Below are positions 5,467 to 10,314 of a stretch of DNA of 64,000 nt, one piece after another; the stretch's first letter is position 1; the number at the start of each line of letters is the position of its first letter. The notes under the pieces are model-generated. The model was not told where the DNA came from, searched no databases, and was given only the letters and a program-made list of their open reading frames with translations. The translations under genes and the position numbers were made by a program. The stretch spans positions 434,001 through 498,000 of the forward strand of contig NZ_SSWH01000001.1 of NCBI RefSeq assembly GCF_004803505.1. Reading direction: 5' to 3'. This DNA is from Arthrobacter echini (GTDB lineage Bacteria; Actinomycetota; Actinomycetes; Actinomycetales; Micrococcaceae).

Positions 5467-6009
5467 ATGAGTGCTATTCCAACAGCTAAAGCGACCATCC
5501 ACACGAACCAGGGCGACATCCTGGTGAATCTCTTCGGTAACCACGCTCCCAGGACGGTCGAGAACTTCACCGGCCTCGCCACGGGCGAGACGACCTGGAC
5601 CCATCCGAAGACCGGCGAGCAGAGCAGTGCGCCGCTCTACGACGGAACCATCTTCCACCGCATCATCAAGGACTTCATGATCCAGGGTGGCGATCCCCTC
5701 GGACAGGGTACCGGCGGTCCTGGCTACCAGTTCGATGACGAGATCAATCCGGACCTGACCTTCAACGAGCCGTACAAGCTCGCCATGGCGAATGCCGGAC
5801 TCCAGGGAGGGCGCGGCACCAATGGGTCGCAGTTCTTCATCACCTCGGTGCCCACCACCTGGTTGCAGGGCAAGCACACCATTTTCGGGGACGTCACCGA
5901 CGAGGAATCCCGCGCCGTGGTCGACAAGCTGAACTCGATCCCCACTGACATGCGGGACAAGCCGCTCGACGACGTCGTGATCGAGAGCATCACGGTAGAG
6001 CAGCTCTGA
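5467..6009 (+). CDS. ppiA: Cyclophilin-type peptidyl-prolyl cis-trans isomerase
   Basis: A 180-residue cytoplasmic cyclophilin that catalyses cis-trans isomerisation of Xaa-Pro bonds. Diagnostic motifs are FHRIIKDFMIQGGDP (residues ~60-74, including the catalytic Arg), NGSQFFIT (~119-126) and the Trp-containing WLQGKHTIFGDV (~134-145). There is no signal peptide. ATG 5467 is preceded by GAAAGGA. The rhomboid protease gene follows after 4 nt, so the two are probably cotranscribed, a pairing common near gyrA in Micrococcales. The length fits the family. Confidence 0.95.
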   Translation: MSAIPTAKATIHTNQGDILVNLFGNHAPRTVENFTGLATGETTWTHPKTGEQSSAPLYDGTIFHRIIKDFMIQGGDPLGQGTGGPGYQFDDEINPDLTFNEPYKLAMANAGLQGGRGTNGSQFFITSVPTTWLQGKHTIFGDVTDEESRAVVDKLNSIPTDMRDKPLDDVVIESITVEQL

Positions 6010-6013
6010 CCGG

Positions 6014-6898
6014 ATGTCCTACGGTGTTCCCGCGCCGGATACGGGTAGCCAGCAGATACCGGTCTGCCCACGACATCCGGACCGCGTCAGCTATGTGAGG
6101 TGTCAGCGGTGCGGCCGCCCGGCGTGTGCGCAATGCCAGCGGCCGGCCGCGGTGGGATTCCAGTGTGTCGACTGCGTGCGGGAGCAGGCCGCCACCGCGC
6201 CTGTGCGGAAGAATGCTTTCGGCGGGGTCGCCCGCGGATCTGTGCCGGTGGCAACCTACACGATCATCGGCTTGTGCGTGGTGGTCTTCCTGCTGCAGCT
6301 CGTGGTGCCGGGCCTGACCAGGTCCCTCCTGTATGCCCCGGTGTTCACGGCCGGGCTCGAGGGCGCTGTTCCCGCTCAGCCCTGGCGCATGCTGACGGCC
6401 GCTTTCCTGCACTCCCAGGGCTCCTTCCTGCACATCGCCTTCAACATGTATGCGCTGTACATCCTGGGGAAGGTTCTCGAACCTGCCATGGGCATCGCCC
6501 GTTTCACCGGGTTGTACCTGATCGCGGCCCTGGGCGGGTCGGTCGGAGTACTGCTGCTGAGCCCGAATCCGCTCCAGGGCGTAGTAGGGGCCTCAGGAGC
6601 GGTGTTCGGTCTGTTCGGAGCCCTGTTCATCGTCCAGCGGAAGCGAGGGGGCGATGTGCGGCAGATCGTCGTCCTCATCGCCATCAACGCCGTGCTCGGG
6701 TTCGTGGTACCGGGCATAGCGTGGGAGGCGCACCTCGGGGGTATGCTGACCGGAGCGGCCTGCGCGGCGATCATCGCATATGCCCCGCGTGGTCGACGGC
6801 AGGCGGTCGTCCAGTGGTCAGGCCTTTCAGGCGTCGTGGCAGTACTCGGCCTCCTGACCTTCGCGGGAGTCGTTCTCCTTCCTGCCCAGGTGTACTGA
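6014..6898 (+). CDS. Rhomboid-family intramembrane serine protease with N-terminal zinc finger
   Basis: A 294-residue rhomboid protease, which cleaves substrate helices within the membrane. The cytoplasmic N-terminus carries a cysteine cluster (C18, C30, C33, C38, C41, C51, C54, with H21) of the B-box/LIM-like zinc finger type. Six or more hydrophobic segments follow from residue ~80. The catalytic Ser194 lies in GASGAVFGL and the partner His240 in AHLGGM; Asn144 in HIAFNMY probably completes the oxyanion site. Four nucleotides separate it from ppiA. Zinc-finger rhomboids are common in Actinobacteria, but substrates are rarely known. A strong hairpin at 6921-6955 ends the unit. Confidence 0.93.
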   Translation: MSYGVPAPDTGSQQIPVCPRHPDRVSYVRCQRCGRPACAQCQRPAAVGFQCVDCVREQAATAPVRKNAFGGVARGSVPVATYTIIGLCVVVFLLQLVVPGLTRSLLYAPVFTAGLEGAVPAQPWRMLTAAFLHSQGSFLHIAFNMYALYILGKVLEPAMGIARFTGLYLIAALGGSVGVLLLSPNPLQGVVGASGAVFGLFGALFIVQRKRGGDVRQIVVLIAINAVLGFVVPGIAWEAHLGGMLTGAACAAIIAYAPRGRRQAVVQWSGLSGVVAVLGLLTFAGVVLLPAQVY

Positions 6899-6920
6899 GC
6901 CTGAAGCTGAACCATCGTCG

Positions 6921-6955
6921 GTGAGGGGCCGGTTCATACAGAACCGGCCCCTCAC
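6921..6955 (+). terminator. Hairpin terminator after the rhomboid gene
   Basis: A perfect 15-bp inverted repeat, GTGAGGGGCCGGTTC / GAACCGGCCCCTCAC, with a 5-nt ATACA loop. No clear T-tract follows. It starts 23 nt after the rhomboid stop and directly precedes the DnaA-box cluster. Confidence 0.8.
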
Positions 6956-6959
6956 GACA

Positions 6960-7088
6960 TCATCCACAGCAGTTATCCACAGCGGGGATAACTTACACAC
7001 ATGTAATTCCACAGCTGTGGATAAGCTGTGCCGCAGAACCGCAGCTTCCGCTCCGATTCTCGACCGTTTTCTGCACAGCTGTGGATAA
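6960..7088. promoter_or_regulatory. Cluster of DnaA-box sequences in a convergent intergenic gap
   Basis: Three exact TTATCCACA 9-mers occur within 116 bp: 6973-6981 on the plus strand, and 7016-7024 and 7080-7088 on the minus strand. Near matches are TCATCCACA (6960-6968) and TTACACACA (6993-7001). The two minus-strand boxes share an extended context, CAGCTGTGGATAAG. The gap is flanked by 3' ends (rhomboid on plus, crgA on minus), so the boxes are unlikely to be promoter elements. DnaA binding is inferred from the established consensus; the usual actinobacterial oriC lies between dnaA and dnaN, which are outside this window. Confidence 0.7.
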
Positions 7089-7144
7089 GACCATGCACAC
7101 GGTGTGTACAGCTGGCTTCGAACGGGAGGTCGTCCTCGCGCAGC

Positions 7145-7393
7145 TCACCGCCACCGGGTGGTCATGAGGAACCCGACGATCGCCACACCGAACCCGACCA
7201 TGATGTTCCATGATCCCCATGCCTCCACCGGGAAGCGTTGCTCGGAAATATAGAAAGTGATGATCCAGAGCAGACCGACGATCATCAGACCGAACATCAC
7301 CGGCTTGTACCAGACCGGGTTCGGCTTGGGCTCCGAGGACCGCACGGCGGTCGCTCCGGACCTGGTTCTCTTGCGGCGTTTCGACTCTGGCAC
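7145..7393 (-). CDS. crgA: Cell division protein CrgA
   Basis: An 82-residue membrane protein of the CrgA family, which in Actinobacteria bridges FtsZ/FtsI/PBPs at the septum and modulates cell division and wall synthesis. It has a basic N-terminus (KRRKRTR), a conserved NPVWYKP motif before the first helix (~residues 31-48), the loop SEQRFPVEAWGSWN and a second helix (~60-77), then TTRWR. GTG 7393 is preceded by GAGGAG. Position between the gyrA region and trpG/pkn matches the mycobacterial and streptomycete order. A TAGAAT hexamer at 7525-7530 on the minus strand may be its -10 element. Confidence 0.95.
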   Translation of the reverse strand: MPESKRRKRTRSGATAVRSSEPKPNPVWYKPVMFGLMIVGLLWIITFYISEQRFPVEAWGSWNIMVGFGVAIVGFLMTTRWR

Positions 7394-7745
7394 GGATACT
7401 CCTCAACGAGGCTCAGTCGTGGATCAACTGCGCCGGTGGTCTCATGGATCTTCTTGGCCCGGCGACAGGTCTCCGGGACCCGGAGGTCCGTCGAGGAAGA
7501 CCCGGCCTCCCGGTTCTCCTGAAGATTCTAGCCAACACCTGCGGTGCACGGCGCCTGATGCCCGGCCATGCCCGGACGCACCGCTGCCCGCCCCACGATC
7601 CGGTCGTCACGGACCGTATGTGACGATGAACGGTTCCATGCGAAGGACGGGGGATAATCGGACGGACTGTTCGTTCGGACAACCCCGGTGGTCCGTCCTC
7701 CTGGTTCGTCCCGCCCACTGTTTCAACGATTGGTTCCCCTGGCTC
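7394..7745. other. Divergent intergenic region crgA / trpG
   Basis: A gap of 352 bases between divergent genes without a convincing gene. On the plus strand GATAAT (7653-7658) is a plausible -10 element for the amidotransferase gene, giving a leader of about 80 nt; no matching -35 is obvious. On the minus strand TAGAAT (7530-7525) is a plausible -10 for crgA. Upstream in-frame extensions of the amidotransferase run through this region but are not supported by conservation of the N-terminus. Confidence 0.5.
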
Positions 7746-8390
7746 ATGGCTGACACAATCCGAATTCTCATCGTCGACAACTACGACAGCTTCGTCTACA
7801 CACTGGTCGGCTACCTGCAGGAGCTCGGCGCCGAGACGACCGTCGTCCGCAACGACGACGTGAGCCTCGCTGAAGCGCAGGGCATGGCCGCTTCCCGTGA
7901 CGGCGTCCTGATCTCTCCCGGCCCGGGTACCCCGGCGGAAGCCGGCGTCTGCGTCGATCTCATCAAGTGGTGCGGGGACCATGACAAACCCATGCTCGGG
8001 GTGTGCCTCGGTCACCAGGCACTCGCCGAAGCCTTCGGCGGAACCGTCACGCACGCACCGGAGCTGATGCACGGCAAGACATCTCTCGTCGAGCACGATG
8101 CCACAGGTGTGTTCGCCGGTCTTGCCTCGCCGATGACGGCCACCCGCTATCACTCGCTGGCTGCAGTCAGCGACGATGTGCCGACCGAGTTGGTCGTCAC
8201 GGCGCGCACGGCGAGCGGCATCATCATGGGGCTGGAACACTCGACGGCTCCGCTCAGCGGCGTCCAGTTCCACCCCGAGTCGGTGCTCACCGAGGGTGGC
8301 TACCAGCTGCTGGGGAACTGGTTGGAGTCCCTGGGGCTCGAGGGTGCAGCGGAGACGGCGGCAGGGCTCAGCCCGCTCATCGCGCGCTGA
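7746..8390 (+). CDS. Class I glutamine amidotransferase (anthranilate / aminodeoxychorismate synthase component II)
   Basis: A 214-residue glutaminase subunit that releases ammonia from glutamine for a chorismate-using partner (TrpE for anthranilate, or PabB for 4-amino-4-deoxychorismate and folate). The protein starts with the family-typical ILIVDNYDSFVYTL. The triad is Cys87 in GVCLGHQAL, His176 and Glu178 in VQFHPESV; the oxyanion region is SPGPGTP (~58-63). ATG 7746 is chosen because homologues begin here. No TrpE/PabB partner is nearby; in mycobacteria the same locus (beside pknB) is annotated trpG and may serve both pathways, so trpG versus pabA is left open. It converges on the kinase gene. 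Confidence 0.93.
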   Translation: MADTIRILIVDNYDSFVYTLVGYLQELGAETTVVRNDDVSLAEAQGMAASRDGVLISPGPGTPAEAGVCVDLIKWCGDHDKPMLGVCLGHQALAEAFGGTVTHAPELMHGKTSLVEHDATGVFAGLASPMTATRYHSLAAVSDDVPTELVVTARTASGIIMGLEHSTAPLSGVQFHPESVLTEGGYQLLGNWLESLGLEGAAETAAGLSPLIAR

Positions 8391-8475
8391 GCCCTGCCGG
8401 TTCCCGGTCCGTATCGGCTCCGCGTATCGGCGCGGGCCGACGTCCCGGCCCGGGGGCTCGAGGCCGGGCAGGCTC

Positions 8476-10314
8476 CTACTCGGAGGTCGGCTCTGCGCTC
8501 GGCGTGGGTTCGGCGGGCTCTTCGGGTTCGACGGGTTCCTCGGGACCCGGGGGGCCGGACGAGACGAAGTAGCTGACAGTGGATCCTGTATCCAGCGCGG
8601 AACCGGCTGCGGGTTCCACCCGAACCACCGTGCCTTCGGGCTGACCGGACTCCTCGGTCCCGGCATTGACGGCGACAAGGCCGAGGTCCACGAGGAGCTG
8701 CTCCACGTCGGCAACGGTCCGTCCCTGCAGGCCGGCCGGAACGGTCACGCTCTCGGGCGCCTCGGGGGTGGTGGGTCCGGACGACACCGTGAGCGTGATG
8801 GTGTCCCCCCGACTGAGAGTGCCAGCAGGGTCGATACCCGTGACAAGGCCTTCGGCGACGTCGTCGGACGGCGCTGATGCCCTCGTCACCTCGAATCCGA
8901 GCCTGCCGAGTTCGGCAGTCACATCAGCCACGGGGCGGCCAAGGTAGGCGTTCGGATTGACGACGATCCGCTCGGCCTCCGTCGGGCCCGTGCTCGGGTC
9001 CTCCGCCGGGTCCTCCGCCTGGTCCGCACTCGGGTCCTCCTCCGGGTCCGCACTCGGCTCTTCTGTCGGGTCTTCGCTCGGTTCCTCCGTCGTCGGGTCG
9101 CCCGAAGGTGTCCTCGGTGCGGAGGTGCTCGATTCCGTCGGCACATCCGAAGTGTCCTCGCCGGCGAACAGCGGCTCGAACATCAGGAACGCGATGGCGC
9201 CGAGAGCGAGCAGGAGCAGCACGATCAGCGGTATGAGCCAGGGGCTGCGGGTGTTCGCCTCGTCACGGGCGTAGGACCGCGCCGGTTCCGGGGTGACGGC
9301 GTCCTCCTGCGACCAGTCACGGGAGGCAGCAATTCCTGCGGTGGCAGGGGCAGCCACGGTCGGCAGGGCCGACGTCGTCGGCGCGGGAAGGGCCGTCGTC
9401 GCCTGTGTGTTCTGCCGTTGCACGGCTACCGTCGGGATGTCCGCGCCGCCGCCGAAGGCACGCATGCCGGGGACGGCCGCCTCTGCCGCGTGGATGTCAC
9501 CGGCACGGATGGCATCCACAGCCCGTGCCAGTGCCTCCGCGTCGGCCGGGCGATCGGCCGGATTCTTCGCCAGCATGGAACCGATGAGGGCCTGCACCGG
9601 TCGCGGGATCGACTCCGGCAGTGGTGGTGGCGCGTCGTTGACCTGGGCGAGTGCGATGGCGATCTGCGATTCGCCGGAGAAGGGACGCCGCCCGGCCAGC
9701 AGCTCGTAGCCGATCACGCCGAGCGCATAGATGTCCGAGGACCCCGTTGCGGGCTGGCCGGTCGCCTGCTCCGGGGCGAGGTACTGGGCTGTGCCCATCA
9801 CCTGTCCGGTAGCTGTCAGCGGTACCTGGTCGGCCAGACGGGCTATCCCGAAATCGGTGATCTTCACCCGGTTGTCCGGCATCACGAGGATGTTGCCGGG
9901 CTTCACGTCACGGTGGACCAGGCCCTGCCGGTGCGCGACGGCGAGAGCCGTCGCCGTCTGGCCGATGATGGACAGGGTCCGATCGGGCGAGAGCACCTGC
10001 TCCTTCTCGATGACGGCCGACAGCGGCTGCCCTGGAACCAGCTCCATCACCAGGTAGGCGGAGCCGCCTTCCTCGCCGTAGTCGAAGACGTTCGCGATTC
10101 CCTCATGGTTGAGCAGCGCGGTGTGGCGGGCCTCCGCCCGGAAGCGGTTCAGGAATGCGGGGTCGCCCGAGTACTCCTCCTTGAGGATCTTGATCGCGAC
10201 GACGCGCCCGAGGATGCGGTCACGCGCTTTCCAGACTTCGCCCATACCGCCTATGGCGATGCGCTCGGTCAGTTCGAATCTGCCGCCCAGGGTGATTCCT
10301 GACGTGGGCCTCAT
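8476..10314 (-). CDS. Membrane Ser/Thr protein kinase with PASTA domains
   Basis: A 612-residue sensor kinase of the division/cell-wall cluster. The kinase domain covers residues ~12-275: glycine loop [10 protein letters not shown], Lys42 in VAIKILK, catalytic HRD 134-136 in [12 protein letters not shown] 154-156 and APE 180-182. A juxtamembrane linker leads to one transmembrane helix (~358-380). Outside lie an acidic Glu/Asp/Pro/Ser repeat (~400-445), two PASTA domains (~450-515 and ~520-587) that bind muropeptides or lipid II in relatives, and a Pro/Glu tail. The catalytic domain resembles PknA (start [20 protein letters not shown]-like loop), yet PASTA domains are the hallmark of PknB; no second kinase gene is present in the operon. 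The ATG overlaps the pbpA stop (ATGA). Confidence 0.95.

Follow-up and report, generated by a model that had tools for sequence, protein, structure and literature searches.

A DnaA-box cluster conserved at the crgA 3′ end in Actinomycetes, often with an McdR/ResR-type palindrome

Introduction

What is the role of a dense group of DnaA boxes that lies outside the replication origin, in the space between two genes that both end there? To our knowledge, the coordination of replication with division in actinobacteria is largely an open question. DnaA-box clusters outside oriC are already known as a kind of site, and Smulczyk-Krawczyszyn and coworkers reportedly described such clusters near oriC of Streptomyces coelicolor in 2006. 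According to two reviews, clusters in Bacillus subtilis and S. coelicolor repress untimely initiation, in the manner of datA (PMC5742627, PMC4585315).

We analyzed a cluster of this kind in a 64,000-nucleotide stretch of the Arthrobacter echini genome (hereafter, the window; NZ_SSWH01000001.1, positions 434,001 to 498,000), together with related loci in other genomes. Coordinates are those of the window unless a contig is named. A first-pass annotation had proposed that the site titrates DnaA, as datA does in Escherichia coli, or else reactivates DnaA or serves as an auxiliary initiation site.

Results

A DnaA-box cluster between converging genes, 13.8 kb from the dnaA-dnaN gap

The element lies between its left neighbor, a gene encoding a rhomboid-family membrane protein (6014..6898, forward strand; Pfam PF01694, E = 1.1e-29) that stops ahead of it, and crgA, which encodes an 82-aa cell division protein (7145..7393, reverse strand; PF06781, E = 3.2e-32). 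Both genes end towards the site, as the first-pass annotation had stated, and a sigma-70 scan found no promoter-like site within 6000-8500. The three exact copies of the DnaA box TTATCCACA that had been claimed were confirmed: box 2 (6973..6981, forward), box 3 (7016..7024, reverse), and box 4 (7080..7088, reverse). Two one-mismatch boxes had also been claimed, of which a single one was found (box 1, TCATCCACA, 6960..6968, forward), along with three weak DnaA-like sites having two mismatches each: TTATCCCCG (6983..6991, reverse), TTACACACA (6993..7001, forward), and TTCTGCACA (7069..7077, forward, head-to-head with box 4). The extended context said to be common to two boxes is present as CACAGCTGTGGATAAG at 7010-7025 and 7074-7089. 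Between boxes 2 and 3 lies a palindrome, ACTTACACACATGTAATT (6991..7008), which contains the TTACACACA site; the centers of boxes 1, 2, and 3 are at -35.5, -22.5, and +20.5 bp, respectively, from the palindrome center. A conserved 3′ palindrome follows box 4 (7092..7110; GTGCACA-N3-TGTGYAC in some relatives). On the other side, 3′ of the rhomboid stop codon, a perfect 15-bp inverted repeat with a 5-nt loop (6921..6955) is a possible terminator without a T-run; a terminator scan gave no terminator-type match for this repeat. An RNA gene was considered and rejected, as the four Rfam matches over 6800-7300 all scored below the gathering score of their families.

The box cluster is far above chance. 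The window contains seven matches with at most one mismatch, compared with a mean of 2.65 in window shuffles, and four of the seven are at the cluster. The whole 3.18-Mb assembly contains 12 exact TTATCCACA boxes, of which the cluster and the dnaA-dnaN gap have three each. For 12 boxes in an assembly of this size, the probability of finding any three within 120 bp was calculated as about 9e-7, and such a triplet arose in none of 200,000 simulated placements. The cluster (C11:440960-441088) and the boxes of the dnaA-dnaN gap (C11:427011-427187) are 13.8 kb apart, which bears out the earlier placement of the site outside the usual oriC position. Similar clusters at many unrelated sites, which would have counted against the proposal, were not found: the remaining six exact boxes are all single. 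Two other genomes of the genus have nine exact boxes (G003; three at oriC, three at the element) and eight (G012; two at oriC, three at the element).

One of the six single boxes of the A. echini genome, at C1:63961, has at least three one-mismatch neighbors within 222 bp; this loose group (C1:63961-64183, L001) contains repeated CTCATGTGCACA sequences.

Conservation within Arthrobacter

All 35 same-genus genomes have an element of ~153 bp immediately 3′ of the rhomboid gene, and the absence from close relatives that had been raised as a counterargument was thus not encountered. It is complete in 34 of these genomes, which make up the genus alignment, and truncated in the other (L064), which was left out. 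Box spacing is near-constant across the genus (13, 43-44, and 63-66 bp, start to start). In the 21 genomes that could be aligned for both regions, the element has 69 invariant columns out of 157, up to 15 of them consecutive, versus 94 of 572 columns, at most 9 consecutive, in the dnaA-dnaN gap, which was compared over its entire length, sequence outside the boxes included. The most constant stretch of the element, AACTTACACACATGT, does not correspond to a consensus DnaA box. In the 34 aligned genomes, conservation is highest at the palindrome, which makes up most of the invariant core. A search of 84,980 species genomes for the 24-base core returned 32 stretches, which belong to Arthrobacter (A. 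agilis, A. echini, A. ruber, and others), Psychromicrobium, Specibacter, and one record titled Vibrio cholerae. The last (strain 35D; L274, WNZI01000003.1) carries the Arthrobacter core, and the record name is probably wrong.

The palindrome is a near-match to the McdR/ResR motif

The palindrome beside the DnaA boxes was found by comparing families. McdR/ResR (Rv1830) is a MerR-family regulator that, according to a published study, binds AATnACAnnnnTGTnATT, represses mycobacterial whiB2, and binds upstream of MSMEG_0833 (PMC9040748). The palindrome in the window agrees with this motif at 11 of 12 specified positions, the same score being obtained for 34 of 34 aligned genus copies, and in families f19, f22, f44, and f45 all 12 positions match. 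The element copy has the same palindrome as the McdR/ResR box of the whiB2 promoter but is not in a promoter; it lies between converging 3′ ends and among DnaA boxes. Other interpretations of the palindrome were dropped. It had been considered as a site for BldD, whose consensus is 1 bp shorter, and as one for autoregulation by DUF3263/NapA; both were abandoned because the published McdR motif is identical and McdR was reported upstream of MSMEG_0833. That McdR is the FtsR of Corynebacterium glutamicum was ruled out, since FtsR is the homolog of Rv1828 and has a different motif.

The motif is rare and recurs at particular genes. At ≤1 mismatch, AAYNACACNNGTGTNRTT occurs at 0 to 7 places per genome, with a match in 13 of 14 genomes. 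It is found upstream of whiB homologs in eight of the 14 (L157, L158, L159, L161, L173, L176, L185, and L187), which widens the published mycobacterial case, and the WhiB domain was confirmed in four of these homologs. Genes for DUF3263 proteins, which we take to be the NapA/Rv0430 family, have the motif (≤2 mismatches) within 360 bp upstream in 15 of 30 genomes (L193-L200, L204-L206, L208-L210, and L214; in A. echini itself, C37:18514, L189), where shuffles gave an expectation of 0. McdR-like boxes at ≤2 mismatches are also present in seven of 21 Arthrobacter dnaA-dnaN gaps (L252, L254, L255, L256, L265, L267, and L268; 0.07 expected), several of them near the dnaA stop codon.

The palindrome was also seen close to where some long ORFs begin; by eye, their products appear to be secreted proteins, and one resembles an NlpC/P60-type hydrolase (L177, L178, L181, L183, L184, L192, and L164). 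In two other genomes, an McdR-like palindrome stands beside boxes at a contig end (L170 and L188).

DnaA boxes accompany the 3′ end of crgA across the class

At E ≤0.01, a sequence-only model of the element had matches in 142 of the 297 genomes searched from the order; run against both strands of the A. echini genome, it matched this site alone. Among 30 model-matched loci that were read, the rhomboid gene lies inside the 1.5-kb flanks in 27 (all except L068, L078, and L085). For class-wide counts, two sets of loci were used. The rhomboid-anchored set comprised 61 rhomboid-crgA gaps (80 loci less 18 without crgA nearby and L134, whose gap is <30 bp), each cut to the ≤400 bp adjoining crgA. These gaps contain 182 DnaA boxes (at most one mismatch from TTRTCCACA), compared with 4.6 in shuffles, with at least two boxes in 52 of the 61; L056 has a large cluster beyond this limit, which is uncounted, and in loci with long gaps (L139, L141, and L145) the boxes remain beside crgA. 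The crgA-anchored set comprised 51 loci of 13 families (52 less L331, whose contig ends 142 bp after crgA and shows no boxes). Within 350 bp downstream of crgA, these loci have 136 boxes versus 4.4 expected, and at least two in 43 of 51, whereas the control region, 350 bp upstream of crgA, has three boxes among the 49 loci whose flanks are complete. Shuffle expectations for this set were computed over the 52 loci.

Loci without a box are few: L041, L056, L058, and L138 of the 61, and L334, L335, and L341 of the 51 (two from f44 and one from f53). The two sets overlap in genomes (e.g., G454 and G425) and are therefore not independent, and each leans towards one group, with 14 of the 61 loci from a single Streptomyces-like genus and 22 of the 51 from a single family, f38. 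The McdR motif (≤2 mismatches) is present in 34 of the 61 rhomboid-crgA loci (0.18 expected) and in 40 of the 51 crgA-anchored loci (0.17 expected). The element thus goes with the crgA 3′ end across Actinomycetes, in a similar arrangement in most relatives examined. This link, and the near-match to McdR/ResR as the most conserved part of the element, were not visible to the first-pass annotation. Among the titles and abstract openings of the open-access literature that were searched, we found no earlier report of a class-wide link to the crgA 3′ end or of an McdR motif among DnaA boxes.

Box positions relative to the palindrome, and McdR-type genes

Box positions were compared in 57 motif-bearing loci, namely those of the rhomboid-anchored set, 22 crgA-anchored loci chosen for the motif, and the window, all turned to the window orientation. 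A forward DnaA box is centered 34.5-36.5 bp to the left of the motif center in 39 of the 57 loci. Further left-hand groups comprise 18 forward boxes at -21.5 to -23.5, 14 reverse boxes at -23.5 to -25.5, and 16 reverse boxes at -11.5 to -12.5; right-hand groups, at about +11.5, +23.5, and +35.5, are smaller. With left-hand steps of ~11-12 bp, the boxes would face roughly the same side of the DNA helix as the palindrome. In the window, one weak box is inside the palindrome, and the strong boxes are 9 and 7 bp off its ends.

The A. echini genome has, in a row, an FtsR gene, a bifunctional-nuclease (BFN) gene, and a MerR-family gene of the McdR type (MerR_1). We take this order to be that of Rv1828-Rv1829-Rv1830 in Mycobacterium, which makes the MerR-family gene a putative McdR ortholog. 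An McdR-type gene adjoins BFN in 23 of 27 loci, with no BFN locus obtained from three of 30 genomes.

Discussion

Of the readings considered, the best is that the element is a datA-type site that sequesters DnaA and is modulated by McdR, coupling initiation to division, and we regard it as just on the probable side. As a noncoding control site near oriC, it would be copied soon after initiation, and its strong and weak DnaA boxes would then hold, and perhaps inactivate, DnaA, so that re-initiation would be damped. The central palindrome is a predicted McdR/ResR site, and a dimer bound there would overlie one weak DnaA box, with a strong box on either side. McdR might either displace DnaA, which would then be available to oriC, or give the DnaA complex its shape, the part that IHF plays at datA, and the outcome would be initiation tied to the McdR-WhiB2 division program. 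Binding of DnaA and of McdR, and the sign of the effect, are here predicted from the presence of the sites, from how they are spaced, conserved, and placed, and from the presence of an McdR-type gene; at the level of sequence, titration, hydrolysis, and reactivation are indistinguishable. The deep positional conservation supports assignment to a datA-kind class that titrates or otherwise regulates DnaA.

The conserved arrangement suggests an old replication-division switch. In its broadest form, the proposal is that of an ancient Actinomycete switch downstream of crgA, in which McdR/ResR among phased DnaA boxes would set the amount of DnaA withheld from oriC. We put this forward tentatively and think it somewhat more apt to fail than to hold. 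If true, the switch would give actinobacteria an equivalent of datA in which a division-checkpoint protein takes the place of IHF, and it would explain why origin copy number rises under McdR overexpression. The McdR study reports that overexpression in Mycobacterium smegmatis inhibited division, increased ori-proximal copy number, and also raised dnaB and dnaN expression (PMC9040748). Extra origins would be expected if McdR displaced DnaA or spared it from inactivation at the element; the raised dnaB and dnaN expression is a possible competing account of them. The accessible part of that study names no oriC mechanism for the effect, which the element makes directly testable.

Several observations count against the McdR-modulated reading. 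DIP-seq of McdR gave five peaks, and those named in the accessible part of the study are whiB2, MSMEG_0833, and MSMEG_5468, none of them crgA (PMC9040748). The dnaA-dnaN gap of A. echini has no McdR-like box, the best candidate having four mismatches. Some boxes break the spacing pattern (the window box at +20.5 and seven reverse boxes at +30.5/+31.5), and the strong boxes flanking the palindrome point towards each other. Beside BFN, an McdR-type gene was not seen in four genomes from f6 and f19 (G054, G116, G146, and G251), though these have the motif upstream of whiB. Finally, no recognizable McdR motif was found in any of 14 Streptomyces-like loci or five f35 loci.

These motif-less loci bear on a simpler explanation, that of a plain DnaA titration site, for whose function the boxes suffice, while McdR or another protein uses the palindrome for something unconnected. 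At least one DnaA box is retained in 14 of 14 Streptomyces-like and 5 of 5 f35 loci where the motif is lost, as plain titration would allow, and McdR-type genes are present in the genomes tested (3 of 3 Streptomyces-like and 2 of 2 f35), so the coupling is not universal. The S. coelicolor clusters resemble the element as actinomycete DnaA boxes outside but near oriC, with boxes at the crgA place in all 14 Streptomyces-like loci, but they differ in that these loci lack the motif. Of the published Streptomyces clusters H69, H24, and D78, the first (a cosmid name) may well be the crgA-linked site. Plain titration nevertheless leaves unexplained why the palindrome is the most conserved part of the element in 34 aligned genomes and why the boxes hold preferred distances to it across families. 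A separate role for the palindrome also sits poorly with a place where both genes end and no sigma-70 promoter-like site was found in 6000-8500. We consider this explanation unlikely.

In one Streptomyces-like genome (G434), a second trio of exact TTATCCACA boxes was seen at C1:4028186-4028467, ~107 kb from the crgA site; it may be a published cluster.

The orientation of the boxes raises a further alternative, in which the element is a DARS-like reactivation site where opposed boxes would promote ADP release, McdR would act as IHF/Fis, and ATP-DnaA would be raised. E. coli datA consists of noncoding DnaA boxes on the oriC side with a site for a second protein between them. The element is likewise a noncoding DnaA-box cluster outside oriC, and at 13.8 kb from it, its dosage would double soon after initiation. 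It departs from datA in that its central site fits a MerR-family regulator and in that the flanking strong boxes are opposed: the essential boxes of datA share one direction, and here boxes 1 and 2 are forward and boxes 3 and 4 reverse. Opposite orientation is a property of the E. coli DARS1/DARS2 boxes, with box I opposite to boxes II and III, and DARS2 has sites for helper proteins (PMC5742627). The increase in ori-proximal copy number reported in the McdR study is also in the direction expected of an activator. By the datA argument, however, a location beside oriC better suits a negative, dosage-driven site, and we judge reactivation a little less likely still than plain titration.

A different regulator at the palindrome is improbable, though it deserves consideration. 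Its TnAC-N6-GTnA pattern resembles MtrA repeats, so that it could be an MtrA-type site instead of an McdR site, and MtrA binds oriC, dnaA, and dnaN according to one report (PMC5487470). In the Streptomyces-like loci (L096-L109), CGGCGTCAA is present in 14 of 14, mostly within GTCACACCGGCGTCAAC and ~10 bp before a GTTATCCACAGATC box; GTCACACCGGCGTCAAC-like sequence is loosely similar to the published MtrA repeat (PMC5650626). The four motif-bearing genomes in which the McdR gene was not seen at its expected place would fit such a reading as well. MtrA sites are, however, direct repeats (PMC5650626), whereas the palindrome of the element is an inverted repeat; in f19, f22, f44, and f45 it agrees with the McdR motif throughout (12 of 12 positions), and it recurs upstream of whiB homologs.

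A second functional or ancestral origin module is very improbable: although the element equals the dnaA-dnaN gap in its number of exact boxes, its GC content is 52% (43% in the core, 67% in the window), no long AT-rich stretch is apparent from its composition, and the element model has no match to the A. echini oriC at E ≤10. The auxiliary initiation site of the first-pass annotation likewise finds no support in composition, whereas the datA-kind titration that it had proposed stands as the best class.

For the McdR-modulated, datA-type reading, the element offers a small, fixed target that can be deleted in laboratory strains and has two predicted binders, and it could serve as a reference point when DnaA regulatory sites are annotated in other members of the class. 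Copy number differs in two genera. Five genomes of genus g23 (G118, G239, G058, G201, and G187) have two close model matches at the rhomboid locus, where the element seems to be tandem-duplicated. In genus g24 (G090, G159, G227, and G322), the model matches more than one distant place per genome, which gives extra copies away from crgA.
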